Assembly: GCA_020403045.1 (NCBI GenBank)
Contig: JADBYK010000035.1
Coordinates: 1 to 58,078 of the forward strand
Direction of reading: 5' to 3'
Origin: Cytophagales bacterium
GTDB lineage: Bacteria > Bacteroidota > Bacteroidia > Cytophagales > Cyclobacteriaceae
DNA length: 58,078 bases
Shown here: positions 22,158-42,604 of the stretch, piece after piece
How the letters are laid out: each line of letters opens with the position of its first letter
Numbering within the stretch: the stretch's first letter is position 1
Notes under the pieces: generated by a model
The model's database searches: none
Told to the model about the DNA's origin: nothing
Seen by the model: the letters and a program-made list of their open reading frames with translations, nothing else
Translations under genes and position numbers: made by a program

Positions 22158-22171
22158 ATGATTTTCATCAT
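22158..22171. promoter_or_regulatory. CRP/FNR-type operator candidate
   Basis: ATGATTTTCATCAT is a perfect fit to RTGAY-N4-RTCAY. It lies in the divergent gap between the Usp operon (start 22042) and the CHAD gene (start 22303), so could control either. The same 14-mer occurs at 30204. Confidence 0.6.
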
Positions 22172-22302
22172 CAGCTTTCGCGGTCTTATATTGAAGAAAC
22201 AGGACAAGAATCTGTCCTGCATTTGATCTTGGTCATGTGAAAGCATCCGATTATTCTACTATCTTTCCTAGGTGATCAGGCCTCAGGTTGGGTTTCGAAA
22301 TC

Positions 22303-23040
22303 ATGAAAAAGTTAAGTTCTTACGCTAGCAAACACTTTAAAGGCCTCACCAATAGCTTACAAAGTTATCATCAAATTGATGACCCGGAGGTGCTTCATTC
22401 TATAAGGGTTGAACTGAAGAAAATCAAATCAATCCTCAATCTAATGCAATTCGGGTTGCCTAATCTTAAAGGCCATAAACGTTATATTCCTTTTCGAACT
22501 ATTTTTAGAAGAGCCGGAGAGATTCGTCAACCAGAAGTTATCTACAAGCTACTTTTGCAACATCAAATTGGAGGGATTACAGATTCACAAATTCCAAATG
22601 CCGACCAGGAAGAACGCTTAATCTCGGCATTTAAGAAGGACGTTCCAATGTTTATAGCAATAGTGACTGCTAAAAGAAGTAAATTGAAAGAGTACTTAGA
22701 AAATCTTACTGAAAAAAAGGCCAGAAAATACTTAGCAAAAAGAAGGCAACAGGTAAAACGTCTGCTTTTCCCTGTTTTCGAACCAGATGCACTTCATAAG
22801 ACGCGAAAAATCATCAAAGAGATTATTTTTCTCGACTGGGTAGATAAAGACAAGCCTTCTGTTACTTTTTTTAAGAAGATAGAGAGTAGAATTGGTCAAT
22901 GGCACGATAAACAAGTCTTGTTGAAGATTTTGAACAGTGCTCAATATAAAGATCAATCTGCTATTCTGATCGCCAGTTGCCAGGCAGATTTAGTGAATCT
23001 AAAAGTAGCTATTCAAGCGCACTTTGGCGATGGAAAATAG
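22303..23040 (+). CDS. CHAD domain protein
   Basis: A 245-residue protein matching the CHAD (conserved histidine alpha-helical) family, whose members bind polyphosphate. Two histidine-containing helices are seen, VLHSIRVELKKIKSILN and LHKTRKIIKEI, one in each half of the domain, set among many basic residues. ATG at 22303 is preferred to a TTG five codons earlier. It faces away from the Usp operon and shares its regulatory gap. Confidence 0.85.
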   Translation: MKKLSSYASKHFKGLTNSLQSYHQIDDPEVLHSIRVELKKIKSILNLMQFGLPNLKGHKRYIPFRTIFRRAGEIRQPEVIYKLLLQHQIGGITDSQIPNADQEERLISAFKKDVPMFIAIVTAKRSKLKEYLENLTEKKARKYLAKRRQQVKRLLFPVFEPDALHKTRKIIKEIIFLDWVDKDKPSVTFFKKIESRIGQWHDKQVLLKILNSAQYKDQSAILIASCQADLVNLKVAIQAHFGDGK

Positions 23041-23080
23041 TTCTCTCAAAAAAGTAAATTGAAAACTTAGTTTTACCAGA

Positions 23081-24091
23081 ATGGATTCATTCACTCATAT
23101 TGCGTTGGGCGGATTGCTTGGAGAAGCGCTATTAGGAAAGAAATTAGGAAAACGTGCGTTGGTTTTGGGCGCTATTGCACAATCGTTACCCGATATTGAT
23201 TTTATAGCATCACTCTGGTTGGATGCATCAGATAATCTGCTTGCCCATCGAGGGTTCACGCACTCGTTCGTGTTTGCGACTGCTGTTACACCGCTTCTCG
23301 CTTTTTTGGCAACGGTTTGGCATCCCCACGCTGGTGTTAGTTTTCGAAACTGGTCTGCCTTTTTTGGAATTCAAATTGTTGTACATCTTTTGATTGATTC
23401 TTTGAATGCGTATGGGGTAGGTTGGCTAGTGCCGTTTTCTGCCCAACGGTTTTCTTTTAACGTGCTTTTTGTAGCGGATCCATTTTATTCGATTTGGCTT
23501 GGTATTGCGTTACTCGCTTTGATCGTAGTGCCTGCTAAAAGCAGAAATCGAGTCAAATGGACTGTTGCCGGATTGGTCTTATCGTCAACCTACCTTGTCT
23601 ACACCATAGCAAACAAATACGAAATCAATAACGATGTGCAACGAATTATCAAACAACAACATGTGGCTTTTATCCGCTATTTTTCAACACCTACGCCTTT
23701 GAATAATTGGTTGTGGTATGTAGTAGTTGAAGAGAAAAATGGATACCAAATAGGTTATCGATCGGTATTTGATCAAAAGGATTCTATCTTATTTCATTAC
23801 TTTCCCAAAAATGATTTGTTACTGGAGTCCGTTCGCTCGCGCAAAGACGTGAGGCAATTACAACAGTTTTCCCAAGGTTACTATTCCATTAGTCAGCGTT
23901 CGGATGCGTTGGTATTTAGTGAACTCCGTTTTGGACAGCAAGCAGGTTGGTATGACCCACAAGCAAACTTTGTATTTCAGTATGACCTAACTCACCCGAG
24001 TAAAAATCAATTGGCAGTACAGCGTGGCCGTTTTGCCGGGTGGAATTCGGCTAGTGTAAAAGCACTGCTCAAGCGCATCAAAGGAGATTGA
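23081..24091 (+). CDS. YdjM-like membrane-bound metal-dependent hydrolase
   Basis: A 336-residue membrane protein. The N-terminal FTHIALGGLLGEALLG and the motifs PDIDFI and HRGFTHS are the histidine/aspartate signature of the YdjM/LexA-regulated membrane hydrolase family. Four to five hydrophobic helices lie between residues 70 and 190, and the C-terminal 140 residues are polar. Activity of the family is not established; phospholipase-type roles have been proposed. Confidence 0.87.
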   Translation: MDSFTHIALGGLLGEALLGKKLGKRALVLGAIAQSLPDIDFIASLWLDASDNLLAHRGFTHSFVFATAVTPLLAFLATVWHPHAGVSFRNWSAFFGIQIVVHLLIDSLNAYGVGWLVPFSAQRFSFNVLFVADPFYSIWLGIALLALIVVPAKSRNRVKWTVAGLVLSSTYLVYTIANKYEINNDVQRIIKQQHVAFIRYFSTPTPLNNWLWYVVVEEKNGYQIGYRSVFDQKDSILFHYFPKNDLLLESVRSRKDVRQLQQFSQGYYSISQRSDALVFSELRFGQQAGWYDPQANFVFQYDLTHPSKNQLAVQRGRFAGWNSASVKALLKRIKGD

Positions 24092-24169
24092 AAAGCACAA
24101 AATAGTTTTCTAAAATGTGCAAGCAATCTGGACGAGCTTTCCGGATCTTTTATTTTTTCTGGAAATGAA

Positions 24170-25378
24170 CTACTCTCTTTGTTTAAAATAAAAAGTAAAG
24201 AGGTAGAAAACAGATCGATAAATGACATAGGCGCACCACTGAAGAAATCTTTTCAGTAAGCCGGCATGTCGGATTTGATTCTCTGTAATTCGAACGCAAT
24301 CATTTTGCATAATTGCATGTAGTGTGTTTTCCACTTTTACAGCAAAATCATGATCTAACACAGCCAGGTTCAATTCAATACTTGCATAGGCACTGACCGT
24401 ATTTACGTTGTAGGAACCTACTGTGGCCCACAGGCTATCATATACAGCCAGTTTTCCATGCAGTATGCTTTTTTGGTACTCGTAGATTTCAATATTCTTG
24501 GTAAAAAGCCATCGGTATAGATAACGTTCGGCATACTTTGCAAGGGCAATATCAGATGGTCCGGCTAAGATCAATTTTACCTTCACACCCCGTTGAGCTG
24601 CTTTTCTCAGTTCGTTTCTAAATTGGTCATTGGGTAAAAAGTAGGCTGACATGATCATAATCGTATCTGCCGCTTGACGAAACATGTTGAGGTAGCTGTT
24701 GGTAATTTCTCTTTTACCTCGCACCCAGTCATTGATGTTGACGGAAACCGGACTATTGATGAATTGTTCACGGTAGTTCGGGCTTCTTCCCAGCATGCGT
24801 TTTAGTGAACCGGGTTTTACTCGTTGTTGGCAAATATTGGTTAGCCAAAGCGCAACTTCTCCTTTTGCGTAAATGGCCCAGTCAAGCCAGGCAGGTTGAT
24901 CAGGCATGTCATTATAGCGGTTGCTGATATTCATTCCGCCCACCAAAGCGTGGATACAATCAACCGTTACAACTTTGTGATGTAGCCTTCTACCTAAATA
25001 GAAATACTTGCTTTTTAATAACGGGTCAAACATTCGAAACCCAATCCCCACTTTTTTTAAACCGCTGATAAAGGAGTGTGATAGGTGGCCGGAGGCATAT
25101 CCATCGACTAGCAAAAATACTTTCACTCCTCGTTGAGCCGCAGCTTTCAATTCATTAGCGATATCAGTACCTGTTTGATCTTCATCAAAAATGTAAGTCT
25201 GTATATAGATTGATTCTTTTGCCTGGCCGATCAGGCTTTTTAATAAGCTAAAATATTCTTTGCCCCCATGAACGAGACTGACCTCGCGCGAAGTAGACCT
25301 ACTCATTTGAGTTTGTGAGGGTTGAAGAGCACGGTGAGAAATTAAATCCTGGTTGGGTTGAACGAAAGGGAGTGGCAT
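24170..25378 (-). CDS. Phospholipase D / cardiolipin synthase-like protein
   Basis: A 402-residue protein with two HKD motifs, HHKVVTVD (followed by ALVGGMN) and HGKLAVYD (followed by ATVGSYN), the catalytic pairs of cardiolipin synthases. It lacks the two N-terminal membrane helices of ClsA and resembles ClsB; a C-terminal hydrophobic stretch (YVIYRSVFYLFTFYF) may anchor it. ATG 25378 is chosen over a TTG six codons upstream. It follows a Usp gene by 51 bp on the same strand. Confidence 0.9.
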   Translation of the reverse strand: MPLPFVQPNQDLISHRALQPSQTQMSRSTSREVSLVHGGKEYFSLLKSLIGQAKESIYIQTYIFDEDQTGTDIANELKAAAQRGVKVFLLVDGYASGHLSHSFISGLKKVGIGFRMFDPLLKSKYFYLGRRLHHKVVTVDCIHALVGGMNISNRYNDMPDQPAWLDWAIYAKGEVALWLTNICQQRVKPGSLKRMLGRSPNYREQFINSPVSVNINDWVRGKREITNSYLNMFRQAADTIMIMSAYFLPNDQFRNELRKAAQRGVKVKLILAGPSDIALAKYAERYLYRWLFTKNIEIYEYQKSILHGKLAVYDSLWATVGSYNVNTVSAYASIELNLAVLDHDFAVKVENTLHAIMQNDCVRITENQIRHAGLLKRFLQWCAYVIYRSVFYLFTFYFKQRE

Positions 25379-25429
25379 ATCTAAAACAGTATGCAATGGT
25401 GTCCACGTTTATGATCTGCATTCGCGAAG

Positions 25430-26248
25430 TTACTCATGAAAAACGTAAATAGGATAGTCGGCTGTGGCACTTAGTTGCTTGATAACACTTTTGTGAAATA
25501 GCGTTTCAATCAATCCCATTCCATGGTGGATAGAGCAAAGTGCCAGGGCATCTATATCATTTTTCACGAGGTATTGATGGATCCCAAAACCAATATCGTC
25601 TGCGTAAATAGTTTCGAAATTGATGCCCGTCATATTGTCAATAACTTTTAATCCGTCTCGGATTTCTTGCGATTCCGTTTCTTCGTTACGCACGTACTTC
25701 TTTTTTACTTGTAGGATCGTGATCGTTGATTCAAGCAAACTAGTAAATTTTCTTAACTGTGTAAGCGGAAGTTCATGGGATTCTTGGTAATCAAAAGCAA
25801 ACACCATGGTAGAAATGTCCTTGTAACCACAGCCCGTGGGCAACAACAGCACCGGAGTATTGGATTTTTTAACCACCTGATAGGAGCGGCTACCAAAGAA
25901 GAATTCGTAAAGATCATCTGCGCCATTCGTTCCCATTACTACCAAGTCATACGAACTTGCCTTTGCAGCAATTACGTCACTCAATCGGCTGTTTGACGGT
26001 TCGACCTCCGATAGGCAGGTAATTTTAAACACCTTCATAACTTCATAACTGCGATCGTCTAATTGCTCAGCAATTGATTTAGTAGCAAGGTATTTTCCTT
26101 TGATTACTTCCTTCGGGGGTAATGAAAAGATGGACTGGACGTTTAATAAGGTCAATTCAGCGCCTATTTTTTTGCATAGTTTAGCAGCATAGGCAATGGC
26201 CTGATCCGCTGTTTCTGAGAAGTCAGTAGGACAAAGTATTTTTTTCAT
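25430..26248 (-). CDS. Universal stress protein (UspA family)
   Basis: A 272-residue two-domain Usp protein. The first domain has MKKILCPTDFSETADQ and GTNGADDLYEFFFGSRSYQVV; the second is degenerate and ends TADYPIYVFHE. It is closely similar in layout to the Usp at 33971 (GTNGAD, VADYPVYVFWR), suggesting duplication inside the island. A CRP/FNR-type palindrome sits 171 bp upstream; cls follows downstream. Confidence 0.92.
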   Translation of the reverse strand: MKKILCPTDFSETADQAIAYAAKLCKKIGAELTLLNVQSIFSLPPKEVIKGKYLATKSIAEQLDDRSYEVMKVFKITCLSEVEPSNSRLSDVIAAKASSYDLVVMGTNGADDLYEFFFGSRSYQVVKKSNTPVLLLPTGCGYKDISTMVFAFDYQESHELPLTQLRKFTSLLESTITILQVKKKYVRNEETESQEIRDGLKVIDNMTGINFETIYADDIGFGIHQYLVKNDIDALALCSIHHGMGLIETLFHKSVIKQLSATADYPIYVFHE

Positions 26249-26418
26249 AAAATTCTATTTTATCTTTTTTACCGATGAAATATTCTTTTGGTAGTTTGAT
26301 TTGCAAATCCGTCTGCCATGAGATAAAACTTGTTTTTTTCTTTTCTACTTGTCAAGGATAATGTGCTAAATTTAGCTGGCATTGCATTTTTTACCCATGA
26401 ATATTGTTGGGTAACATG

Positions 26419-26432
26419 GTGATCTTTGTCAC
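26419..26432. promoter_or_regulatory. CRP/FNR-type operator candidate
   Basis: GTGATCTTTGTCAC fits RTGAY-N4-RTCAY exactly and also the CRP form TGTGA-N6-TCACA apart from the outer bases. It lies between the end of the export operon (26467) and the Usp gene start at 26248, so most likely serves the Usp-cls unit. Confidence 0.5.
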
Positions 26433-26466
26433 TTGAAAAATGACTGATCTAGCCGAGATGTTCTTG

Positions 26467-27150
26467 CTATTGTTTAATAATTCTCCCGTCTTCCATCTCA
26501 ATGGTACGGTGTGTGTTTTGGGCGAACTCCTGATCATGGGTAACTACCAGCAAGGTTTGTTTGTTTTCTTCTGCGAGTTTCTTAAAAATATCAAAAACGA
26601 TTAAGCTGTTTTTCTTGTCCAAATTGCCGGTGGGTTCATCACACATGACTATACTGGGACTATTGATCAGGGCACGTGCAATTGCTACGCGTTGCTTTTC
26701 TCCGCCAGAGAGTTGGTTGGCTTTTTTGGCTGCCAGCGACTGGATGCCTAAGGTATTCAACCTATCCATAGCGAGATCCTTAACTTCAACTTCTGAATGA
26801 ATCCCTAGCTTGAGACCGGGAAGCATTACATTTTCTAATACAGTGAATTCATTTAGTAAATAGTGAAACTGAAAAACAAAACCAATACTCTCATTGCGTA
26901 CTCTGGCCAGTTGCTTTTCGGTTCTTCCCCTCATTGCCTGTCCACCAATGTACAAATCGCCCTCATAGTCGGTATCCATGGTAGAAAGTATATAGAGCAA
27001 GGTAGATTTGCCACATCCTGACTTACCGGTAACTGAAACAAACTCACCCTTTTTAATGGTGAGGGAAACATCTTTTAGCACCGGAATGGTGACCGGGTCA
27101 TGAAAACTCTTGTTGACGTGTTCGGCTTGTAGTACAATCCTTTCATCCAT
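26467..27150 (-). CDS. ABC transporter ATP-binding protein (LolD/MacB type)
   Basis: A 227-residue ABC ATPase with Walker [10 protein letters not shown], signature LSGGEKQR, Walker [14 protein letters not shown] and the H-loop VVTHDQEFA, in the LolD/MacB subfamily. ATG 27150 is chosen; a GTG at 27162 would overlap the permease end by 11 bp. It is the third gene of a leftward adaptor-permease-ATPase operon. Confidence 0.93.
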
Positions 27151-27151
27151 A

Positions 27152-28411
27152 CTATTTGCCACGAATGATTATAACAGGATCTACTTTACTGGCTTTACGA
27201 GAAGGTGCCCAGCCAGCCAGATAGGTTGTCACCAAAGAAAAAATAGAAGCAATCAGATAAAAAGCAGGATTGTAATTGATAGGATAAGTTCTAATGGTAG
27301 GTAGGGAAGGAGTATTGAACGGAATTTGATCGATCAACATTGAAAGCAGGAAGCCAAAGAATAGCCCTAATAGTCCGCCAAAAAAGCCAATGCTAAGGGC
27401 GATCACCAGAAAGATTCTATTTACATCCAGACCGGAGAAGCCGGTGGCTTTTAGGATGGCGATGGAATCCATCTTTTCATAGATCATCATATTCAGAATA
27501 TTATAAATTCCAAAACCGGCTACAATCAACAACACAATTCCAACGGAGTAGGAGATCAAAGATCGCACCGATGAGCCGGTTTCAAATTGCGAGTTGGCCG
27601 TCTGAATATCTTCCGCATCTGCGTTGAATAATTTCGCAAACTCTTTAGCAACAGGGGGTGCTTGATTAACATCAACCATTTTTAGTTGAATATCAGTAAT
27701 GTAGTCGCTTGGTTTACCTAGTATTTTTTGAGTAGTACCGATGGATGCATAACTCTGCACTTTATCTAACTCCTGCAACCCTGATTGAAAAAAGCCAACT
27801 ACTTTAAGTGAAAATTGTTGTTGTTTGGCAGTTGTAACCAGTACCACATCGCCTATGTTAGCTAGCAACTTGGCGGCCAGCCCTTTTCCTAAAATAATGC
27901 TGTTGGACACATTTTGTATGTCCAGCGGATTTCCTTGCGTGACATAATCACTGAAATGAAACAAGCTGCTTTCTTCCCGTGCATCAATGCCATTGATTAC
28001 ACCGGTAATGTCGATGGAACCATCATTAAAGAAAACTTGTGCGGTGATTTTAGGTGCCACACCAGTTACGCGATTGTCTTTTCGCAAGGCCTGCATAATT
28101 GCCTGGCTATTGTATATTTCTTGGCGGCTGTTGCCTGATTTGATGGATCGGATAAAATTATAGGAGCCTTGATAGTCCTTTGATTGGTTAATGGGTTGAT
28201 CCAGATTAGGTTTGATCTCATTAAACAATCGGATGTGAGCTGTACGATTTAAGATGAGCCCATCGAGCAAGTCATTTAAACCTGTCATGAAACTGAGCAA
28301 AGTGATAAACATGGTGATACTAAAGGTCACACCGATAGCAGCAACTAATGTTTGCTTCCAGCGTGCCAAGAGTAATGCTTTGGCGATGCGTATGATTAAA
28401 CGAACGTTCAT
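27152..28411 (-). CDS. ABC transporter permease (LolE/FtsX type)
   Basis: A 419-residue permease with the LolC/E-MacB topology: one N-terminal membrane helix (about 18-42), a large periplasmic domain (about 45-280), then three helices in the last 140 residues (VGIVLLIVAGFGIYNILNMM and following). It overlaps the adaptor gene by 4 bp. Together with its ATPase and adaptor it probably exports a substrate across the envelope, as DevBCA/MacAB systems do; substrate unknown. Confidence 0.9.
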   Translation of the reverse strand: MNVRLIIRIAKALLLARWKQTLVAAIGVTFSITMFITLLSFMTGLNDLLDGLILNRTAHIRLFNEIKPNLDQPINQSKDYQGSYNFIRSIKSGNSRQEIYNSQAIMQALRKDNRVTGVAPKITAQVFFNDGSIDITGVINGIDAREESSLFHFSDYVTQGNPLDIQNVSNSIILGKGLAAKLLANIGDVVLVTTAKQQQFSLKVVGFFQSGLQELDKVQSYASIGTTQKILGKPSDYITDIQLKMVDVNQAPPVAKEFAKLFNADAEDIQTANSQFETGSSVRSLISYSVGIVLLIVAGFGIYNILNMMIYEKMDSIAILKATGFSGLDVNRIFLVIALSIGFFGGLLGLFFGFLLSMLIDQIPFNTPSLPTIRTYPINYNPAFYLIASIFSLVTTYLAGWAPSRKASKVDPVIIIRGK

Positions 28412-29487
28412 GGATTAGGCTTATAGATGACTTCGGACGCGGATAATCCACTTAGGATTTCCACTTTCTGGTAGTCCCTTAAGCCAATGGTGACACTGCG
28501 CTTTTCGTCTTTGTTAACCAATACCACCGAATCTCCAATCAGGTAATTTCTCGGAATGGTGAGGGCTCTTTCCTTTGTATTAATAACAATATTAGCTTCA
28601 GCAGATAGGTTGGGGTAAAGTACCGCTGGCTTAGATTTGAATTGCGCGTTCACAGTAAATGAGCGCGACTGTTCATTCATAAGTGGCTCAATCTTAGTTA
28701 CGATTGCCTCAAATACTTGTCCTTTGTAGCTGTCCATTGTATAAAGTACCTTTTGCCCCTCTCGCAAACGCACAATATCAAACTCATCGACTTTCATTTC
28801 CAAAATGAATTCGGAAGCATCTCCGAGAATAGCTACCGGATTTAGGGTGTTCACCAATTCTCCTTTCTCTTTTAAAATTTTGTACACTTTTCCATCGGCA
28901 TTTGCTTTGATGGTATAATCTCCCGCAAGAGCATTGCTAATCTTTAAATTATTTTTGGCTTGACTGGAAGCAAATTCCAATTGCCTTTTTAAATCGTGAT
29001 AGGTCAGGAGTGATACCTCATAGTTGGTAACTGAGTTTTTATACGCCAACTCGCGTTGTTCGAGTTCAACCACACTGCCAACACCTTGCTTTTTTAGATT
29101 TGCCTGCCTCACAAATAACAACGAATCATTTTTGAGTTTACTGTAAGCAAGTTCACTGTTCACCTTGGCTGTTTTTAGTTTATCGGCATTTGCCTTTAGG
29201 TCAGCGTAATCGGAAGCCAAGCGGGCATTAGACGTATTTAATTTGGAAGGCTCGTTCAACACGCTGAGTAGAGGAGCACCTTTTTTTACCAAGTCTCCTT
29301 CTGTTACCAGTATTTCCTGAATAAGACCATTTACAGTAGAGTAGACCTGATATTGATTTTTGCTTTTGACAATACCGGAGGCATATACCGATTCAGAGAT
29401 ATTGACGACTGTAGGAGAAGTTACTTCTGTCTTTTTTTTGCAGGACATTGCCACCAAAAGAAAGAAAGCGAACAAGAGATACTTCAT
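28408..29487 (-). CDS. HlyD/MacA-type periplasmic adaptor lipoprotein
   Basis: A 359-residue membrane-fusion protein with a lipoprotein signal (MKYLLFAFFLLVAMSCKKK). The lipoyl-like half-motifs (GLIQEILVTEGDLVKKGAPLL and DGKVYKILKEKGELV) flank a long alpha-hairpin (about 85-190), followed by beta-barrel and membrane-proximal domains. It is the first gene of the operon with the LolE-like permease and ATPase. No outer-membrane TolC partner is nearby. Confidence 0.9.
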   Translation of the reverse strand: MKYLLFAFFLLVAMSCKKKTEVTSPTVVNISESVYASGIVKSKNQYQVYSTVNGLIQEILVTEGDLVKKGAPLLSVLNEPSKLNTSNARLASDYADLKANADKLKTAKVNSELAYSKLKNDSLLFVRQANLKKQGVGSVVELEQRELAYKNSVTNYEVSLLTYHDLKRQLEFASSQAKNNLKISNALAGDYTIKANADGKVYKILKEKGELVNTLNPVAILGDASEFILEMKVDEFDIVRLREGQKVLYTMDSYKGQVFEAIVTKIEPLMNEQSRSFTVNAQFKSKPAVLYPNLSAEANIVINTKERALTIPRNYLIGDSVVLVNKDEKRSVTIGLRDYQKVEILSGLSASEVIYKPNP

Positions 29488-29523
29488 GAAGAGATACTGT
29501 TAAGAATCACTAAAATAGTGAAA

Positions 29524-30072
29524 TTACTTGTGCTTTGGTGGAAACTCGGTTAGGATTTCGTAGACAGATTCGGCAATTTCCTTTTCGGTAAGTTCGGGCA
29601 CTTCGTTGTTCAAAACCTCGGTGGCCCATCCCCTCCAAATGAGATTGTTGTTTTTGGCGTCCATCAAATCGATGATCAGCGTGCCCTCTTGATATTGATA
29701 AACATACATTTGGCTGCGCATCCAATACGGACTGTAGTAGTAGCCATAGGGGGATGGCTGTACAGACGAGCGATTTTCAACGATGATGTGATAATGGACG
29801 CGAAAATCGGGATTTTCTTCATCGAGCGGTATACCCTTCGCCTGAAACTGCAACTCTACTGCTCTTCTGATCCTCTTGTCAGTAAGCTCATTGTAAAGCA
29901 ATGGATTATTTTTCGATTCAATTTCTCTGTAAGGAAGCCAAGCATATTTTTTATATACCGACAAGTTAACATCTCGGTCATAGTCCGAGCGCACCCTGAT
30001 TTGATTGCTGCAGTTATTCAGAAGTAACAAAATGCATATGGTTACCAATAATGAGATAAGTTTTGTTTTCAT
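29524..30072 (-). CDS. DUF4136 lipoprotein
   Basis: A 182-residue lipoprotein (signal MKTKLISLLVTICILLLLNNC). The mature sequence SNQIRVRSDYDRDVNLSVYKKYAWLP and the late GTLIIDLMDAKNNNLIWRGWATEVL are the recognisable DUF4136 pattern, common in Bacteroidota and proteobacteria. Function unknown. A CRP/FNR-type site lies 132 bp before its start. Confidence 0.9.
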   Translation of the reverse strand: MKTKLISLLVTICILLLLNNCSNQIRVRSDYDRDVNLSVYKKYAWLPYREIESKNNPLLYNELTDKRIRRAVELQFQAKGIPLDEENPDFRVHYHIIVENRSSVQPSPYGYYYSPYWMRSQMYVYQYQEGTLIIDLMDAKNNNLIWRGWATEVLNNEVPELTEKEIAESVYEILTEFPPKHK

Positions 30073-30203
30073 AACATTGTGCCAAGATGATCAGTGAAAA
30101 GCTCGTATCGGCAGGCTCTCACTAACGGACTTGGAGATTTGATTATCAACCCAAAAGTAATGGCTAGGTAGCCGGTAGATACTGAGCGATATGTTTCATA
30201 AAG

Positions 30204-30217
30204 ATGATTTTCATCAT
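30204..30217. promoter_or_regulatory. CRP/FNR-type operator candidate with overlapping hairpin
   Basis: ATGATTTTCATCAT, identical to the site at 22158, lies between the DUF4136 gene and the small protein at 30288. It overlaps a perfect 9-bp inverted repeat, GATTTTCAT (30206-30214) and ATGAAAATC (30221-30229), which could allow a second binding register. Confidence 0.55.
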
Positions 30218-30287
30218 TTAATGAAAATCCACGCATACCTATTTTTAAATCAGAACATGGCGTTGCGAAGAAGCTGCCAGGTTAGCT

Positions 30288-30500: not shown

Positions 30501-30522
30501 CTCCTAACCCAGTGAATTAATC

Positions 30523-30699: not shown

Positions 30700-30740
30700 C
30701 ACTCAAATCGATTGTAAAGAACTATTTCTAAAAACCATTC

Positions 30741-31991: not shown

Positions 31992-32005
31992 GTGAGAAAT
32001 GTCAT
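31992..32005. promoter_or_regulatory. Weak CRP/FNR-type operator candidate
   Basis: GTGAGAAATGTCAT keeps the TGA-N6-TCA core with one mismatch to RTGAY-N4-RTCAY. It is centred about 60 bp before the small membrane protein start at 32059. Listed for its position beside the other sites; alone it would not be convincing. Confidence 0.3.
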
Positions 32006-32971: not shown

Positions 32972-33862
32972 TTACTCTAACAGATTGCGTTGACTGAGAA
33001 AGGTTGCCTCTTGAATGATTTCCTCAATACTTTCAGCTGAGACGCCAATTTCTTTGAGCAGTTTCTTATTAAAGGTTACATCGCGGCATAAAACAAGTCC
33101 TGCTTCCATCATGGGCACCTTCTCTTTTTGAGAGAGTGATTGTAGGCAGGTAATCGGATAAAGCCCGGCCTGATCGATCATTTCCCGAAGACCTTTATTC
33201 TCTGGATAATCCCATCCCAGTAAATTCAATTTTGAACATAAGGCATAGGCAATTGCATCTGTTGAAAATCGGGTGTTGGTAGCAATCCAACCTTCGCTTA
33301 CCTTGTTTTCTAGATTAGCATGGATATCATTAAATCTGGAATGAACGTACAATGGAATTTTAACATCACAGATTGTTCCCTGCAAATTGTGGTATTTACA
33401 TTCAAATACTTTTTGAATTCCATCTCTTTCTGCTAGAATATCTATTTCATGATTCACGCATAGGCCTTTTAGATTTTGGTTAAGTTTTACTTTATGTCCT
33501 TGGTACTTCAAAATCTCGCTCACATACTTTTCAAACGGATAGCCGGAGGGTCCTAATTCCATAATCGCCTTTTTTAATTTATATTTCGATGCGGCCGGTT
33601 GGTGCTTTTTCTTTAAGATGTTAAAGGCTAATTGATAGATCTTTTTGGTGGTCATCCCCTCCTGCAAATGATCCTGTACTTCCTGTATCACTGCTTCAAT
33701 GATTGCTTCGCTGGCACCCGATCGCTGTAATGATTTTCGCAGTTTGACAGACGAAAACCACGCCTTTTCACCAGATGCTTTGATAATTTGAATTTTTGTT
33801 TTCAATGAGATGTAGTTTGGTTCCTTTTTACGTCCACAATTTAGCAATAAAATGATGGACAT
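32972..33862 (-). CDS. ATP-cone / PD-(D/E)xK restriction-endonuclease-like protein
   Basis: A 296-residue protein. Residues about 22-105 read like an ATP-cone (IQIIKASGEKAWFSSVKLRKSLQRSGA and LQEGMTTKKIYQLAF), the nucleotide-sensing domain of NrdR and ribonucleotide reductase. Residues 110-210 contain a Mrr/PD-(D/E)xK-type nuclease core: GYPFEKYVSEIL, HEIDILAERDGIQ and the VFECKY motif. The start is uncertain because the first 20 residues are hydrophobic and atypical. No methyltransferase is adjacent, so classical restriction-modification is unlikely. Confidence 0.78.
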   Translation of the reverse strand: MSIILLLNCGRKKEPNYISLKTKIQIIKASGEKAWFSSVKLRKSLQRSGASEAIIEAVIQEVQDHLQEGMTTKKIYQLAFNILKKKHQPAASKYKLKKAIMELGPSGYPFEKYVSEILKYQGHKVKLNQNLKGLCVNHEIDILAERDGIQKVFECKYHNLQGTICDVKIPLYVHSRFNDIHANLENKVSEGWIATNTRFSTDAIAYALCSKLNLLGWDYPENKGLREMIDQAGLYPITCLQSLSQKEKVPMMEAGLVLCRDVTFNKKLLKEIGVSAESIEEIIQEATFLSQRNLLE

Positions 33863-33903: not shown

Positions 33904-33917
33904 ATGATATCTGTCAT
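33904..33917. promoter_or_regulatory. CRP/FNR-type operator candidate
   Basis: ATGATATCTGTCAT fits RTGAY-N4-RTCAY exactly. It lies 53 bp before the Usp start at 33971 and 41 bp from the divergent nuclease gene start. A TATAAT-like stretch follows at 33951, which would place the site near -50 for the rightward unit. Confidence 0.55.
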
Positions 33918-33970
33918 CAATATTTTCAAGCATAATTACCAACTTACCTTTATAATTAAAACCGAATCAT

Positions 33971-34789
33971 ATGAAAAAAATATTGTGTCCGGTTGATTTT
34001 ACCGATGTTTCTGCCAATGGAATGGAGTATGCTTCGCACTTAGCAAAGGCACTCCATGCCAGACTTACGTTACTTTATGTACGCACTTCGATTTGGCCTG
34101 AAGCCGTGCAGTTAAAGAACGAATCGAGCAAAAGCAATGAGGAAATTCAGTCTAGCCTTACTCTTTTTAAGGGGGAAGTTCAAAAGGAGTTTGGCATTGA
34201 TTGCGACTATCACATTGAGACGACCACCGATACCTTTGAGAATACTGTTGCTTCTTTTGCCAAGCAGTATGACTTAGTGGTAATGGGTACCAACGGAGCT
34301 GATAACACGTATCAGTATGTTTTTGGAACTAATACCTTTCAGGTGATAGAGCAATCCAAGTGCCCGATTATTGTAGTGCCACAGGGTTGTGCTTATCAAC
34401 CGATCGACAAGATTATTTATGCCTATGATCCGGATACCAATCCTATTTTCTTAATCGATCAGCTAAAGGAATTATCTAGTTCATTGGACACCCAAATCAG
34501 GGTTGTGCATATCGCGGAAGCCAAGCCGTCCGATGAAGTAGCGCACAAGATGGAGATATTGCGTGATGCGGTTAAAGCTCGCGCGTCAAGGAGCTTTGAC
34601 TGGAGTTTTGATTTTCAATATTCCAAAGACGTGTGGTGGGCGTTGGATCAGTACATGGTGGCTAACAAGGGAAGCATGTTGGCGCTTTCGTTTCATCACC
34701 GGTCTTTGATCGAAAAACTCTTCAACGAAGATGTTATTGAGAAAGTGACGATGGTTGCAGATTATCCCGTTTATGTTTTCTGGCGATAG
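33971..34789 (+). CDS. Universal stress protein (UspA family)
   Basis: A 272-residue two-domain Usp protein beginning MKKILCPVDFTDVSANG. The first domain has GTNGADNTYQYVFGTNTFQVI; the second is degenerate and ends VADYPVYVFWR. It is the near-twin of the Usp at 25430. It is followed after 15 bp by cbpA and then cbpM on the same strand, suggesting a stress-induced chaperone operon. Confidence 0.93.
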   Translation: MKKILCPVDFTDVSANGMEYASHLAKALHARLTLLYVRTSIWPEAVQLKNESSKSNEEIQSSLTLFKGEVQKEFGIDCDYHIETTTDTFENTVASFAKQYDLVVMGTNGADNTYQYVFGTNTFQVIEQSKCPIIVVPQGCAYQPIDKIIYAYDPDTNPIFLIDQLKELSSSLDTQIRVVHIAEAKPSDEVAHKMEILRDAVKARASRSFDWSFDFQYSKDVWWALDQYMVANKGSMLALSFHHRSLIEKLFNEDVIEKVTMVADYPVYVFWR

Positions 34790-34804
34790 TAACAAGTAGG
34801 TGTA

Positions 34805-35713
34805 ATGGATTTCGTTGATTACTATAAAATACTGGAGGTAACAAAAGGCGCTTCGGATGCTGACATTAAAAAGGCATACCGCAAGCTTGCCAGGAAGTAT
34901 CATCCCGACTTGAATCCCAATGATGCGGCTGCTAAATTGAAGTTCCAACAGGTGAACGAAGCGAATGAAGTATTAAGTGATCCGGATAAACGAAAAAAAT
35001 ACGATGAGTTTGGTAAGGATTGGAAGTATGCAGACGAAGCGAAGCAATATCAGGAAAAAGCTAGCCGGAATAGACCGAGAGACAGAAGACCTGATCAGGG
35101 ATTTTCTGGTGATTTCTCGGGTGGTGATTTTTCTGATTTTTTTGAATCCATGTTTGGCGGTCAGTCGAGCCGAAGAGGGACTCAGGTAAAATTCAGAGGT
35201 CAGGATATTACGGCTGAGCTTCAGCTGACTTTAAAAGATGTTTATACTTCGCAAAAGCACACGTTAACGGTAAACGGCAAAAATATTCGATTGACAATAC
35301 CTGCAGGTGTAGAAAATGGGCAGACCATTAAGATTGCCGGTTATGGTGGGGAAGGAGTGAACGGTGGTCCATCGGGAGATTTATACATCAGTTTCTCCAT
35401 AGAGAATACGACTAAATTCAAACGTGATGGCAACAACCTTCATACGGAAGTGGAAATTGACCTGTATACGGCTTTGCTGGGTGGCGAGGTGACGATCGAT
35501 ACATTTGATGGCCAGGCAAAACTGGTCGTGAAACCAGAAACCCCAAACGGCCAAAAGGTCAAACTCAAGGGAAAAGGTTTTCCTGTTTACAAAAAGGACA
35601 ACGAATTTGGTGATCTTTTTGTCACCTGGCAGATCAAAATCCCATCTGGCCTCACTGAAAATGAAAAAGAGTTATTCCGGCAACTTCAGAAACTGAGAGC
35701 CAATGGAAAATAG
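34805..35713 (+). CDS. cbpA: DnaJ-family curved DNA-binding protein
   Basis: A 302-residue class II J-protein. The J domain (1-70) has the HPD motif in KYHPDLNPN; a G/F-rich linker ([20 protein letters not shown]) leads to two C-terminal substrate-binding domains, with [14 protein letters not shown] and [13 protein letters not shown]. No zinc-finger cysteines, as expected for CbpA. It works with DnaK and, in enterobacteria, binds curved DNA in stationary phase. It overlaps cbpM by 11 bp. Confidence 0.93.
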
Positions 35714-35996
35714 ACAGTTAATTCCCGTAGCAGACTTCTGTGATTATTATCACATAGAGTTTTCGTTTGTTCGCTCATTGCATGACTATGGCTTGCTGGA
35801 ATTTACGACCGTAAAAGAGGTGCACTACCTGAGAGCCGAGGACCTTAGTGAATTGGAAAAAATGGTGCGCCTGTATTACGAACTGGACATTAACCTGGAG
35901 GGAATAGACGCCATCAGGCACATTCTTCAGCGAATGGACAAGTTGCAAGAAGAGCTAAATTCCCTAAAAAACAGACTTGATTTCTATGAAAGTTGA
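35703..35996 (+). CDS. cbpM: CbpA modulator, MerR-like
   Basis: A 97-residue protein of the CbpM family, which binds and inhibits the J domain of CbpA. The N-terminal MerR-like helix-turn-helix region ([35 protein letters not shown]) is followed by a coiled-coil tail ([17 protein letters not shown]). Its overlap with cbpA and known family pairing make the call firm. Confidence 0.9.
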
Positions 35997-36010
35997 GACG
36001 TAGCTGTTGC

Positions 36011-38584: not shown

Positions 38585-38787
38585 ATTTGAAGCTATTTCT
38601 TTTGGATTTGCTTAGCCAAATTAAATATAGGATTTAAACAGTTAGGATTTTACTATTGCCATTGCGGTGGGTTTGCATGCCTGCTGTTAGGGCTGTGGCA
38701 TGTGCTAAATGGGTGTGCAAATCGAAAGACAAACTTCTTAAAAGCAAAAAGTGCCTCTAAATGATCTACATAGTTAGATTTGCAATT

Positions 38788-39135
38788 CTATTCATTGTCG
38801 TCACCCTCCAGATGTTGATCGACTGTGGTGGTCGTTTTATGGTGGAGTTTTGCTTTTTGTTTTTTGATTTGACTTTCTAAACTCCTACAAACCATTTCTG
38901 CGGCAACTTCAAAGCTTTCTGCGAGTTCTTTTGCAAACAGATCATTGCCTGGGATGACCAGGGTAGCCTCTACCAGAAAATTGTCGCGCTTGGCGTTCTT
39001 TTCCTTTTTTAACAAAATATTACAACGCTCAATACGATCAAATTGGCGCTCCAGTCGTTCAAATTTTTCTTCTATTAACTTTTGTGTTTCCGGATTCAAC
39101 TTGTGAATATGCGGAGATTGAATGTGGAATTTCAT
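38788..39135 (-). CDS. hpf: Ribosome hibernation promoting factor (short HPF/RaiA)
   Basis: A 115-residue S30AE-domain protein (MKFHIQSPHIHKLNPETQKLIEEKF, then ERCNILLKKEKNA and DLFAKELAESFEVAAEMVCRSLESQ). The charged lysine/histidine C-terminal tail resembles short HPF/YfiA. Such factors bind inactive ribosomes in stationary phase or hypoxia. It is third in a leftward series after the eRF1-like protein (51 bp gap) and the phosphoribosyltransferase remnant. Confidence 0.9.
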   Translation of the reverse strand: MKFHIQSPHIHKLNPETQKLIEEKFERLERQFDRIERCNILLKKEKNAKRDNFLVEATLVIPGNDLFAKELAESFEVAAEMVCRSLESQIKKQKAKLHHKTTTTVDQHLEGDDNE

Positions 39136-39185
39136 GATTGCGATAGTTTAAGGATTTTTGAGGACTCACCATTTAGAACAAAGCA

Positions 39186-39569
39186 TCAATGCTTAACAAA
39201 ATAGTTTTTTACATACGCATGCTGTTGCTTTTCAGTCATTTTCTCGGCTGGCTGCATTTTTATTGTAATATGTTTCAGTTGCTGATTTTTAAGTAGCGAA
39301 TTATACAGTTCTACTTTTGCATCGGTGGGGCCAAAGATTACTACATCGCTGTATTCTTTGATTACATCACCCAATTGGTGATAATAGTCTGATTGCAGAG
39401 CTTGTTCTTTGCTGTGCATGTGATCTTCCCCTTTTCGCATGATCAACTCCCTTACGGCTGGAGTAAATTTCGAAGCAATCGTCTTTGTCGATATAGGATC
39501 GGGCGTAAACTCCATCAAGTGGGCACTTGCATGATCCATCCAAATACCAAGTTTTTTAGCGGTTTTCAT
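39186..39569 (-). CDS. Small eRF1/baeRF-like protein
   Basis: A 127-residue protein beginning MKTAKKLGIWMDHASAHLMEF, matching the WIDHREA-type opening of small bacterial proteins annotated as translational machinery or host-attachment-like, related to a domain of eRF1/Pelota. The end VVIFGPTDAKVELYNSLL and MTEKQQHAYVKNYF fit the same fold. Its position next to hpf is typical of stress loci in other bacteria. Assignment to this family is by pattern recall, moderate confidence. Confidence 0.65.
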   Translation of the reverse strand: MKTAKKLGIWMDHASAHLMEFTPDPISTKTIASKFTPAVRELIMRKGEDHMHSKEQALQSDYYHQLGDVIKEYSDVVIFGPTDAKVELYNSLLKNQQLKHITIKMQPAEKMTEKQQHAYVKNYFVKH

Positions 39570-39572
39570 AAT

Positions 39573-39818
39573 TCATGTGTTTATAAGTTGACTAACCGAA
39601 TTCTCATAAGGGCTTATCGCGAATAATTGTTTTGCTTTTGTAAGTCTGCCTTTAAATGGCCTGATTTCAATAGGAGAACTAAGCGCTAGGGCAAAATCTG
39701 AGCCTACATTAACCCCGCCTCTTGGTATTGTCTCCACAACAGCATCTTGATCTTGTCCTTTATACCTGATCAATTTTTCCGCTAGTAGGTGCGTGGTATG
39801 TTTTCGATCGTGATACAT
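39573..39818 (-). pseudogene. Truncated phosphoribosyltransferase
   Basis: An 81-residue product. Residues 1-52 (HTTHLLAEKLIRYKG, ETIPRGGVNVGSDFALAL, SSPIEI) match the N-terminus of the roughly 210-residue stress-associated phosphoribosyltransferases, which run RxxAGxxLAxxL...LPRGGVPVxxEVAxxL. After IEI the sequence RPFKGRLTKAKQLFAIS no longer resembles the family and ends after 29 residues, so the PRPP-binding loop and most of the fold are gone. The next gene starts 4 bp later. Confidence 0.6.
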
Positions 39819-39886
39819 AACGTTTTTGTTCAGGTAAAATAAAGAGCTATCAGACGATTAAACTATGATAGGTGTAGTTCATTATT

Positions 39887-39900
39887 ATGATAAATATCAA
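39887..39900. promoter_or_regulatory. CRP/FNR-type operator candidate
   Basis: ATGATAAATATCAA has the FNR-like core TGAT-N4-ATCA and one outer mismatch to the motif seen elsewhere. It lies 69 bp before the leftward phosphoribosyltransferase-eRF1-like-hpf series, just 8 bp after the end of the mlaD-like gene. Confidence 0.55.
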
Positions 39901-39907
39901 GATCTCA

Positions 39908-40918
39908 TCATTTTATTTTTTTAAATGTCATTGCCATAGAATCTTCCCTGGCTTTTTTTAGTTCTTTCTCCTGCTTTTTAAAATACCCCCGGAAAAGGAA
40001 ATTGTGCTTCATCGCTTCCATATTTTCATTAAAACGATCGCTGGCAATTTCAATATTTTTCATAGTCCTTTTTAAATCTTTTGCAAAAGCAGTGTCACTC
40101 AATAACACACCCGTAGCACCTTTACCAGTTTTCATTTTTTCAGTTACGGCTTTAATATCGCTTGTCACTTCAAGTGCCCTATTGGTCACTTGCTGCAGTT
40201 GTTGAATGCTTTTTTGGAGGCGTATGGTCGAAGCCGTATCACGCAATAAAATACCAGCAACGCCCTTCCCATTTTTCATATCTTGAATTAAAAAGTTGAG
40301 GTCATTGGTAAATGCAGTTGTGTTTTTGGTTGTAGCACGAATACTCGCAATAGAGTGTTTCACGTTTTGAGCTACCGAAGTATCAAGAAGAAGGCTCCAG
40401 AGTGAATTGCTGTTGTTTAATTTTTGCGTGACTCGTTTTAGGTCTGTTGTTATTTGGAAGAGATTTTGGTTGGTCAAGTCCAGGGTTCTAAGCATCGCAT
40501 CAGTTTCCACTGGCTTAGTGGATGCCAGCATATCTCCTTCTTCTACTGTTTCGCCAGATCCACTTGAAGGGTTAGAAATATTGACAAGTTTGTTACCCAT
40601 GAGCCCGTCTGTTCCTACTGTAGCGATCGAGCCTTTTTTGATAAATGAGTGAACATCATTTTTAATCACCATAGTAACTTTCACAGTGGTATCGCTGACG
40701 ATCTCCACTTTCTTGATGGTACCCACATCTATTCCCGAGAATCGGACATTGTTGCCTTTCATCAGGCCATTGACATTGTGAAAAGTAGCCTTTACTTCAA
40801 ATGTTTGGTCAAAAAGATTTTGGTTGCTGCCAATGAGATAAAGTGTACCGAGTAACAGCACGAATCCTATCATGACAAACATTCCTAATTGCACATTGCT
40901 GGAGGTGGTATTCTTCAT
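39908..40918 (-). CDS. MlaD-family (MCE) lipid transport protein
   Basis: A 336-residue protein with one N-terminal membrane helix (about 10-30) and an MCE domain (QTFEVKATFHNVNGLMKGNNVRFSGIDVG), followed by a long helical coiled-coil region with internal repeats (GKGVAGILLRDTAS; GKGATGVLLSDTAF). It would form the periplasmic ring of an Mla-type phospholipid transporter. It closes an operon with the ATPase 10 bp upstream and permease. The long C-terminal region is typical of the Bacteroidota form. Confidence 0.9.
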   Translation of the reverse strand: MKNTTSSNVQLGMFVMIGFVLLLGTLYLIGSNQNLFDQTFEVKATFHNVNGLMKGNNVRFSGIDVGTIKKVEIVSDTTVKVTMVIKNDVHSFIKKGSIATVGTDGLMGNKLVNISNPSSGSGETVEEGDMLASTKPVETDAMLRTLDLTNQNLFQITTDLKRVTQKLNNSNSLWSLLLDTSVAQNVKHSIASIRATTKNTTAFTNDLNFLIQDMKNGKGVAGILLRDTASTIRLQKSIQQLQQVTNRALEVTSDIKAVTEKMKTGKGATGVLLSDTAFAKDLKRTMKNIEIASDRFNENMEAMKHNFLFRGYFKKQEKELKKAREDSMAMTFKKIK

Positions 40919-40928
40919 GGCTCAATTG

Positions 40929-41687
40929 TTAATCAAAGAATAATTTTACTTTTGGGTCTTGACTTTTCTTTAACTGAGGGTACGTCCCTGTCGCATAGCA
41001 AATCCCATCGATGAGCATGGCGACCCTATCAGCGGCCATGCTTACACACTGTAAATCATGCGAGATAATGACCGAAGAAGTCTGATACTTTTTTTGAATA
41101 TCTATCATCAATTGAATAATTTCCTTTGCGGTGATCGGGTCTAGCCCTGTGGTGGGTTCGTCATATAATATTATTTCCGGCTTTAGTATGAGTGTTCGCG
41201 CAAGGGCTATTCGTTTGCGCATCCCGCCCGAAAGTTCTACAGGCATCATATTGATCGTGTGTTCTAATCCCACGTTATACAGTGCCTCCAATACGAGCTC
41301 ATCGGTCTTGTCCTTATTCAGTTCTTTTTTGAGCCAATGCCTGCGCAGCGGAAATACCAAATTTTCTCGGACGGTCATAGAATCGTACAATGCATTACTT
41401 TGAAAGAGAAAACCAATTTTCATTCGTAAGCGATCAAGGTCTTCATGCTCTAGGGTGAGAACATCCTGACCAAAAATGGTAATTGAGCCATCTTCCGGCT
41501 TCATTAATCCAATGATGCATTTGATCAGTACCGATTTTCCTGAACCTGACTTTCCTAATACCACAAGATTTTCACCTTTGTATAAGTCCAAATTGAAATG
41601 ATCGAGCACCTTATTCGTTCCAAACGATTTGCATAAGTCCTTAATGACTAAAACGGCCTCATGTACTACGGCATTTTCCATACCCAA
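40929..41687 (-). CDS. Mla-type ABC transporter ATP-binding protein
   Basis: A 252-residue ABC ATPase of the MlaF/Ttg2A type. Walker A is GKSGSGKSV, signature LSGGMRKR (the M is usual in this family), Walker B EIILYDEPTTGLD, and VIISHDLQ the switch histidine. It abuts the permease gene with no gap (stop 41687/41688), so the two are coupled. Drives lipid movement between membranes with MlaE and MlaD. Confidence 0.93.
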   Translation of the reverse strand: MGMENAVVHEAVLVIKDLCKSFGTNKVLDHFNLDLYKGENLVVLGKSGSGKSVLIKCIIGLMKPEDGSITIFGQDVLTLEHEDLDRLRMKIGFLFQSNALYDSMTVRENLVFPLRRHWLKKELNKDKTDELVLEALYNVGLEHTINMMPVELSGGMRKRIALARTLILKPEIILYDEPTTGLDPITAKEIIQLMIDIQKKYQTSSVIISHDLQCVSMAADRVAMLIDGICYATGTYPQLKKSQDPKVKLFFD

Positions 41688-42458
41688 CTAGGTTAAACCC
41701 AAGAGATCTGTTATTTGGACAGCGATTAAATCAATTACGAAAATGGTTAGTGAAGACACGACCACAGCTGAGTTGGCTGAGTTGCCTACACCTTCCGTTC
41801 CCTTTTTAGAATTGTAACCTTTATAGCAGCCGATCACCCCAATAGCAAAACCAAAAAAGAAAGTTTTAATCAAAGAGGGAATAAAGTCGCTGTAACTGAT
41901 TGCCTGAAAGACTTGAGACCAGTATAAACTCCAACTCACTATACCTTTAATGTTCGCTCCCAAATAGGCACCGTAGAGTGCAATGGCATTCGACCAAAGA
42001 GATAAAATAGGCAACATTAGCGTAGCGGCCAATATTCGTGTTACAACCAGAAACTTGAATGGATTAGTCCCGGAAACCTCCATGGCATCTATCTGCTCTG
42101 TGACTTTCATTGAACCGAGTTCAGCGCCAATGCTGGAGCCAATTTTTCCGGCAGCGATTAGTGCGGTAATCATGGGTGCAATTTCCCGAACTAATGATAC
42201 AGACACCATACCTGGCAGCCACGATTCAGCTCCAAATTCTACCAGGGTTGGTCGAGATTGGATTGTTAGTACTAAGCCCATAATGAAGGCGGTGATTCCA
42301 ACAAGTGGCAAAGACTTGTAACCAATGAAAAAAGCTTGTCTGACCAGTTCGCCAAATTCATAACGTGGTTTAAATCCTTCTTTGAAAAAACGAGCAGCAA
42401 AGCGACTGATATCACCCGTCTCCTCAAAAAATTGCTGTAGATAGCTTGGCGTTTTCAT
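41688..42458 (-). CDS. Mla-type ABC transporter permease (MlaE)
   Basis: A 256-residue integral membrane protein with about five helices. It carries the MlaE signature GSSIGAELGSMKVTEQIDAMEVSGTNPF (seen in pieces, key residues GAELG..KVTEQIDA). First gene of the operon; two palindromic sites lie about 110-130 bp upstream. Confidence 0.93.
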   Translation of the reverse strand: MKTPSYLQQFFEETGDISRFAARFFKEGFKPRYEFGELVRQAFFIGYKSLPLVGITAFIMGLVLTIQSRPTLVEFGAESWLPGMVSVSLVREIAPMITALIAAGKIGSSIGAELGSMKVTEQIDAMEVSGTNPFKFLVVTRILAATLMLPILSLWSNAIALYGAYLGANIKGIVSWSLYWSQVFQAISYSDFIPSLIKTFFFGFAIGVIGCYKGYNSKKGTEGVGNSANSAVVVSSLTIFVIDLIAVQITDLLGLT

Positions 42459-42568
42459 TGTGTGATCAATTAAGCAATATTATCTTTAAGCCGAAACCAT
42501 TGAGTTCTTTTAGTCAACAAAAAAACATCTTTTTTAATCAAATCTTACAAAAACGAGTCTGTGAAATA

Positions 42569-42604
42569 ATGACTATCATCATTGTATTTTTTGACAGTTG
42601 TCAG
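42569..42604. promoter_or_regulatory. Paired CRP/FNR-type operator candidates before Mla operon
   Basis: ATGACTATCATCAT (42569-42582) fits RTGAY-N4-RTCAY exactly; TTGACAGTTGTCAG (42591-42604) keeps TGA-N6-TCA with outer mismatches. Their centres are 22 bp apart, about two helical turns, a spacing that allows two dimers on one face. They lie in the divergent gap between the permease gene (42458) and the propeller gene (42724). Confidence 0.5.

Follow-up and report, generated by a model that had tools for sequence, protein, structure and literature searches.

A palindrome recurs before stress-related operons

The stretch of DNA analyzed here, a contig of 58,078 nucleotides from a Cytophagales bacterium (assembly GCA_020403045.1, contig JADBYK010000035.1; "the window"), contains a run of operons for Usp, chaperone, lipid-transport and export proteins, and the palindrome RTGAY-N4-RTCAY recurs in the gaps before them. 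An earlier reading of the sequence (the original prediction) had ascribed five exact copies, all intergenic, to one Crp/Fnr-family regulator encoded elsewhere, perhaps acting under low oxygen or redox stress. Our results suggest that the palindromes are activator sites of a low-oxygen regulon with two candidate regulators: a receiver fused to a Crp-type protein (REC-CRP) and a smaller Crp/Fnr protein (Crp39). The motif is its own reverse complement, and the sites between 22158 and 42604 are listed without strand.

22158..22171, exact site ATGATTTTCATCAT, upstream of the usp-helical-usp-usp operon
26419..26432, exact site GTGATCTTTGTCAC, upstream of the usp-cls operon
30204..30217, exact site ATGATTTTCATCAT, upstream of the DUF4136-HlyD-FtsX-ABC operon
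33904..33917, exact site ATGATATCTGTCAT, between an ATP-cone gene (minus strand) and usp-cbpA-cbpM (plus strand)
35740..35753, exact site GTGATTATTATCAC, within cbpM (coding)
39887..39900, one-mismatch site ATGATAAATATCAA, upstream of the genes for 81- and 127-amino-acid (aa) proteins and HPF
42569..42582, exact site ATGACTATCATCAT, upstream of mlaEFD

The operons that these sites would control are as follows.

18800..22078, minus strand, predicted target operon: three Usp genes and a helical protein (gene calls; first gene starts at 22078)
24170..26248, minus strand, predicted target operon: Usp and a PLD-like (cardiolipin-synthase-like) protein
26467..30072, minus strand, predicted target operon: DUF4136 protein and a MacAB-like export system
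33971..35996, plus strand, predicted target operon: usp-cbpA-cbpM
38788..39818, minus strand, possible target operon: 81-aa open reading frame (ORF), 127-aa protein and HPF-type protein
39908..42458, minus strand, predicted target operon: mlaE-mlaF-mlaD

The five exact copies named in the original prediction (22158, 26419, 30204, 33904 and 42569) are present, and all are intergenic as judged with a simple ORF caller. Its list had overlooked the exact copy at 35740, which lies in the same range and whose presence within cbpM is possibly due to chance. Two of its three near matches, at 31992 and 39887, exist with one mismatch each; the third, at 42591, is not among the matches with at most one mismatch, the nearest of which is at 42566. 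The statement that every site is intergenic holds for the exact five but not clearly for 31992, which falls in a doubtful 86-aa ORF.

The motif is in excess and concentrated in intergenic DNA

We counted seven exact copies in the window against a mean of 0.88 in 100 shuffles (maximum, 4), which bears out the excess that had been claimed. Five of the seven are intergenic, compared with an intergenic fraction of 8% (P = 6e-5); a further copy, at 2875, is coding and lies outside the range 22158..42604. One-mismatch matches number 32 where 20.8 are expected, and the near matches in the window are therefore mostly noise. Six of the 73 exact sites of the genome fall inside the 20.4-kb range (P = 0.0027 under uniform placement). 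When permuted palindromes were compared in the window alone, RTGAY tied with two other patterns at five intergenic sites each, and both of these stem from a tandem repeat at 57.4 to 58.1 kb.

Across the 4.02-Mb genome, the 73 exact sites compare with 35 for the reversed control. Genomic context was read for 50 of the 73, and 13 of these 50 are intergenic against 7.6% expected (P = 7e-5), a fraction derived with a simple ORF caller from 0.43 Mb that includes many stretches chosen for their sites or regulators. Among the sites whose context was read, coding and noncoding densities thus differ, as the original prediction required. The stricter form ATGAY-N4-RTCAT occurs 31 times versus 6 for its reversed control, and 14 of the 31 copies are intergenic where two or three are expected (P = 1.6e-8); one of the 14, C48:38679, sits between convergent genes. 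The intergenic bias of the stricter form persists outside the window (10/27, P = 1.6e-5) and outside both the window island and a second island described below (7/24, P = 0.0016). That the palindromes are functionless chance occurrences in AT-rich gaps is very improbable. Such a view could draw on the 37 of 50 context-read exact sites that are coding, probably by chance, and on the modest gap excess of the loose pattern outside the window (8/43, P = 0.014), but it is contradicted by the shuffle and permutation tests and by the conservation and promoter spacing presented in the following sections.

The second island, on C39, combines respiratory and stress genes (C39:48584-72018; L038, L039). 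Its exact sites lie before usp-ccoI, cytochrome c-nosZ, a fasciclin gene and a fused ccoNO gene.

C39:48584-72018, genes: MFS, usp, P-type ATPase (ccoI by context), Crp/Fnr gene, cytochrome c, nosZ, nosL, nosD
C39:48584-72018, further genes: ABC gene, fasciclin, fused ccoNO, ccoP, ccoG, fixH, ccoS-like/DsbD_2, usp, dnaJ-like

On C100, one site lies between the hsp20-kinase-REC-CRP operon and a divergent gene pair, the second of which is another DUF4136 gene. Other exact sites precede a korA-like gene (pyruvate/2-oxoacid ferredoxin oxidoreductase; C92) and YtxH, MBL-rhodanese and YgaP-like genes. These gene names were confirmed with Pfam. Together the predicted targets resemble a program of low-oxygen respiration and survival, and the low-oxygen theme of the original prediction gains sequence support from the motif's presence before nosZ, cbb3 oxidase, usp-ccoI, hsp20 and korA. 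Two exact intergenic sites are off theme, one on C94 before an outer-membrane-type gene and one on C108 before a TonB-receptor-like gene (both named by eye).

Candidate regulators

Profile searches of the genome gave five HTH_Crp_2 matches (four above the cut-off) and 13 cNMP-binding matches. Crp39 is a 196-aa Crp/Fnr protein encoded at C39:53360-53950, beside nosZ; REC-CRP is a 364-aa protein (C100:867-1961) with a receiver, a cNMP-binding domain and a Crp helix-turn-helix according to Pfam, and its gene sits in an operon with hsp20 and a histidine kinase gene. Both have the Crp/Fnr superfamily layout, a cNMP-binding-type effector domain followed by a Crp-type helix-turn-helix, and both match solved Crp/Fnr chains. 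The N-terminal Cys cluster that is the Fe-S hallmark of Fnr is absent from both, Crp39 having two scattered Cys residues. Against NCBIfam models, the 196-aa protein scores below the cut-offs for FixK (58 vs 300), CRP (58 vs 266) and Fnr (33.6 vs 228), as does REC-CRP for FixK (72 vs 300) and Fnr (77.3 vs 228). The matches of Crp39 include a Flammeovirgaceae metagenome-assembled genome (MAG; 93%), Spirosoma, Chryseotalea and a Cytophagales MAG.

The recognition helices of the two proteins share E-[ST]-x-I-R (VETVIRT in Crp39, TESLIRT in REC-CRP). E. coli FNR has Ser at the position of the Ile, and an Ile in its place would fit a change of the first half-site base from T to A or G. This shared helix also bears on whether some other Crp/Fnr-family protein of the genome, such as the Crp-like protein on C48, reads the sites. 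The TGA-N6-TCA core is common across the superfamily, the genome has several members, as counted above, and an exact intergenic site lies beside the family member on C67. Nevertheless, such a reader seems a distant prospect: the recognition helices of the other members compared lack E-[ST]-x-I-R by eye, and all three exact sites in the 19 kb around the C48 gene (L041) are coding.

The motif is enriched around REC-CRP genes in relatives

REC-CRP was sought in 148 family genomes and in 118 genomes across the phylum, a full-length match in the latter being one with E below 1e-70; presence and absence rest on the best 13 or 17 candidates scored per genome. In the 118-genome set (best 17 or so candidates each), the class of our genome contributes 29 genomes, our own counted, of which 17 have a full-length REC-CRP; none of the 89 outside the class does. 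Counts of ATGAY-N4-RTCAT in the 148 family genomes were also considered as a test of co-occurrence with REC-CRP and were dropped, many genomes without a full-length match having high counts.

From genomes with strong matches we took 40 REC-CRP regions, one per genome. RTGAY-N4-RTCAY has 45 copies there across 95 kb of intergenic sequence (margins included), compared with 18 across 647 kb of coding sequence. None of the other palindromes in the set of 120 permutations reaches its intergenic count: they average 2.1, and the runner-up, ATGRY (35), overlaps it in sequence. An exact site lies upstream of the REC-CRP operon in 20 of the 40 regions. An open scan of the REC-CRP operon promoters, covering 256 four-base half-sites with gaps of 0 to 10, placed ATGA-N6-TCAT first (18/40) and TGAT-N4-ATCA second (15/40). 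The first base of the half-site is mostly A, not T: Fnr-type TTGAY palindromes occur once in intergenic and seven times in coding DNA of the 40 regions, compared with 31 and 9 for ATGAY. The motif again ranks first when 15 loci of other families in the class are taken, with 7 intergenic copies against a mean of 0.12; 8 of the 15 are without an exact copy.

Among operon first genes in the 40 regions, exact sites precede 18 of 43 kinase genes (P = 8e-5) and 11 of 25 Usp genes (P = 8e-4), compared with 34 of 238 unclassified genes; weighing against this comparison, some of those 34 share their site with a divergent kinase or Usp gene, and the classes are therefore not independent. Exact sites precede mlaE in two of two cases (G017, of the same genus, and G035), hsp20 in two of four, ccoNO in 2 of 10 and ccoP in none of 8. 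In relatives, sites thus occur before some of the target classes seen here (usp, mlaE, hsp20, cco and nos), whereas a lack of conservation would have counted against the original prediction; cbpA is an exception, as described below. In one relative (G136, L236), the REC-CRP gene adjoins a divergent cbpA gene and has no exact site upstream.

Sites lie at fixed distances from predicted promoter boxes

Bacteroidota promoters carry TAnnTTTG near -7. We measured distances from site centers to predicted boxes of this kind, about half of the sites being without one. The surroundings of 127 oriented sites hold 25 exact boxes, of which 21 begin 29 to 30 or 51 to 52 bp from the site center. With one mismatch allowed, a box lies at those distances for 56 of 108 oriented sites, own-genome sites left out, compared with 49 of 1,283 random intergenic positions (P = 2e-40, a nominal value since both orientations can count and relatives are not independent). 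In the window, four sites have such boxes.

22106..22113, minus strand, -7 box TAACTTAG, one mismatch to TAnnTTTG, 51 bp from the center of site 22158
26367..26374, minus strand, -7 box TAAATTTA, one mismatch, 51 bp from site 26419
30152..30159, minus strand, -7 box TACTTTTG, exact, 51 bp from site 30204
42539..42546, minus strand, weak -7 candidate AAGATTTG, one mismatch, 29 bp from site 42569

From the C100 site an exact box lies in each direction, at 51 and 52 bp. A looser scan of the genome for a site with at most two mismatches plus a box gave 18 hits, compared with 1, 2, 7 and 5 at four control offsets, and is therefore no more than moderately specific.

Some sites occur in pairs. Those at C39:49846 and 49868, before usp-ccoI, are 22 bp apart and share one -7 box at 51 and 29 bp; a pair at L043:6474 and 6496 has the same separation and a shared box at 51 to 52 and 29 to 30 bp. 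Some members of such pairs carry one mismatch. The arrangement suggests room for two activators next to each other.

Two candidate regulators are associated with the same core motif

The motif is likewise enriched around Crp39. Near 29 Crp39 orthologues we found 27 intergenic copies, the top rank among 120 permuted palindromes (mean, 0.67), and 11 of 30 loci (our genome counted, without one) have an exact site before the Crp39 operon. In named relatives of Crp39, exact sites also precede cytochrome c-nosZ (L069, L070), Crp39 itself (L071) and OsmC-like genes (L071, L072; named by eye). The single regulator of the original prediction gains no support, both REC-CRP and Crp39 having the same core motif nearby.

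These data raise the alternative that the window sites are controlled mainly or solely by Crp39, with REC-CRP as one of its targets. Besides the enrichment around Crp39 and its own operon sites, there are eight Crp39 loci whose genomes gave no full-length REC-CRP match, and five of them carry an exact site between genes. On the other hand, exact sites persist at REC-CRP operons where no close Crp39 (none below E 1e-38) was matched, in 13 of 23 regions, compared with 7 of 17 in genomes with one. Because sites persist at either regulator where the other was not matched, each appears to go with the core motif independently. Spacer sequences also argue against Crp39 as main regulator: the four-base spacer is A/T-rich at REC-CRP promoter sites and differs from that of Crp39-neighborhood sites, and a spacer model correctly assigned 17 of 21 REC-CRP promoter sites and 24 of 27 Crp39-neighborhood sites in leave-one-out testing. 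This model places the five exact intergenic sites of the window on the REC-CRP side (0.8 to 4.5 bits), three of them weakly, and the nosZ (-11.1) and fasciclin (-3.1) sites on the Crp39 side. We therefore regard Crp39 as an unlikely main regulator of the window.

Promoter distance was considered as a second label. With at most one mismatch, boxes in REC-CRP regions number 21 at 51 to 52 bp and 11 at 29 to 30 bp, compared with 2 and 19 at Crp39 loci. The label is suggestive, but it was set aside because REC-CRP promoters deviate and an independent test was not significant. Because distance does not confirm the spacer split, the assignment of the window sites to REC-CRP is tentative.

A FixL-like kinase and a proposed low-oxygen switch

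Both the kinase encoded beside REC-CRP and the kinase of one relative have PAS domains with PDB matches to heme-PAS chains, namely those of FixL and E. coli DosP. We compared 37 relatives' kinases with FixL PAS, taking a score of at least 120 as a good alignment, a threshold set after seeing a gap from 59 to 126. A His at the position of the proximal heme ligand is present in all 24 well-aligned kinases and in our own, and the distal Arg in 19 of the 24. The other 13 aligned poorly, and some may be other kinases or miscalled. The NCBIfam FixL score of our kinase is 112, against a cut-off of 850.

Based on these observations, we propose, with a probability of roughly 0.68, that the palindromes are activator sites of a Crp/Fnr-superfamily low-oxygen regulon under the FixL-like kinase and REC-CRP, overlapping with that of Crp39. 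The PAS histidine kinase would sense oxygen or redox state and phosphorylate REC-CRP. The activated REC-CRP dimer would bind ATGAY-N4-RTCAT centered near -62 or -41 and recruit RNA polymerase to TAnnTTTG promoters. In the window, this would switch on the usp, chaperone, HPF, lipid-transport (mlaEFD) and export operons, and elsewhere REC-CRP's own hsp20-kinase-REC-CRP operon and cbb3 oxidase genes. Crp39, with the same core motif nearby, would mainly serve nos genes. The enrichment around the two regulator genes and the promoter spacing support the earlier suggestion of a Crp/Fnr-type site whose regulator is encoded elsewhere; oxygen sensing, phosphorylation, binding and activation, and which protein acts at each window site, we infer.

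Several findings weigh against this proposal. Four of the eight usp loci in the genome, and 20 of the 40 REC-CRP operons, have no exact site, and many relatives lacking a full-length REC-CRP match have high raw counts of the motif. The cbpA loci of 29 relatives (L109-L137) proved free of exact sites, which leaves conservation of the usp-cbpA-cbpM site unsupported. Sites 33904 and 39887 have no -7 box at the preferred distances, and the 21 REC-CRP promoter sites comprise 5 of class II, 2 of class I and 14 without a box at those distances. Three of the window spacer scores are small (0.8, 1.6 and 1.6), and in an independent set of 9 versus 5 sites spacer type and promoter distance were not significantly linked (P = 0.14). 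Finally, our own kinase has Ser where FixL has Arg near the heme.

A broader and more speculative version, to which we give somewhat less than even odds, extends the proposal across the class, probably Bacteroidia. There, a one-piece "FixJ-FixK" regulator, a receiver joined to a Crp-type activator, under a heme-PAS kinase would form an autoregulated, dormancy-like low-oxygen master switch acting through ATGAY-N4-RTCAT; Crp39 would read the same core with another spacer preference, so that tandem sites 22 bp apart (as at C39:49846 and 49868) could be co-occupied.

Comparison with known systems

Fnr, Anr and Dnr resemble the system described here in the Crp/Fnr fold, the TGA-N6-TCA core and anaerobic targets. 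They differ in that the candidates here lack the N-terminal Cys cluster and the first half-site base is mostly A where theirs is T. Judged by the features tested, the system is not Fnr, FixJ or FixK, because of the fused receiver-Crp architecture, the lack of Fe-S cysteines, the ATGAY half-sites and NCBIfam scores far below the cut-offs.

FixJ has a LuxR-type output, and FixLJ-FixK targets include cbb3 genes. DosR is likewise LuxR-type and under two-component control, with a different site. The likeness to FixLJ-FixK of rhizobia and Burkholderia lies in the FixL-like PAS kinase, a receiver-type regulator, a Crp/Fnr-type output and cbb3 and nos targets; one report names FixLJ-FixK2-NnrR and nos (PMC6710368). 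Here, however, receiver and Crp-type domains are fused, the half-site is ATGAY rather than TTGAY, and the promoters are of the TAnnTTTG type. REC-CRP has receiver, cNMP-binding and Crp helix-turn-helix domains and not the LuxR output of FixJ.

The window has a cluster of Usp genes, and Usp genes figure in several described systems. The low-oxygen-activated (lxa) locus of Burkholderia cenocepacia, a member of another phylum, has six Usp genes and an alpha-crystallin gene, and its authors link it to a FixK/Anr-like CRP protein (PMC6127331). The same report describes 10 Usp genes and counterparts such as alpha-crystallin in the Mycobacterium DosR regulon, upregulated in hypoxia (PMC6127331). Usp genes and, in the proposed model, two-component control are common to DosR and our system, whereas the regulator type and site differ. 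In Myxococcus xanthus, NmpRSTU exerts two-component control over a Usp gene, cbb3 oxidase, its P-type ATPase and hemN, and its regulator is NtrC-like rather than Crp/Fnr-type (PMC11841059).

In the literature searched, with most subscription papers outside it, no Bacteroidota regulator or site was described for low-oxygen control of nosZ, cbb3 oxidase and Usp genes. Bacteroidota include nitrous-oxide reducers. For low-oxygen control in this phylum, the present analysis yields a candidate site together with its promoter geometry, as well as two possible regulator genes and a list of predicted targets.

Other features of the window

The helical protein of the operon at 18800..22078 gave only a weak match to the sll1863 stress family, below the cut-off. 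The 81-aa ORF (39573-39818) is PRTase-like by eye and appears, again by eye, to be a fragment; searches of Pfam and NCBIfam gave no match for it. At 32972-33862, divergent from usp-cbpA-cbpM across site 33904, lies a gene for an ATP-cone and restriction-endonuclease-like protein; the latter call is weak, and an AF1548-like C-terminal domain scores above the cut-off. Positions 57471-58078 are a tandem array of units of about 92 bp that reaches the contig end. A tRNA search of this array with ARAGORN found none, and Rfam gave one sub-threshold tRNA match, in the last unit; the 5' part of the unit is tRNA-like and the 3' part unrelated. Two DUF4136 genes, one in the window (29524-30072) and one on another contig (L043:4916-5458), share an arrangement: each follows a site that has a -7 box 51 bp away.

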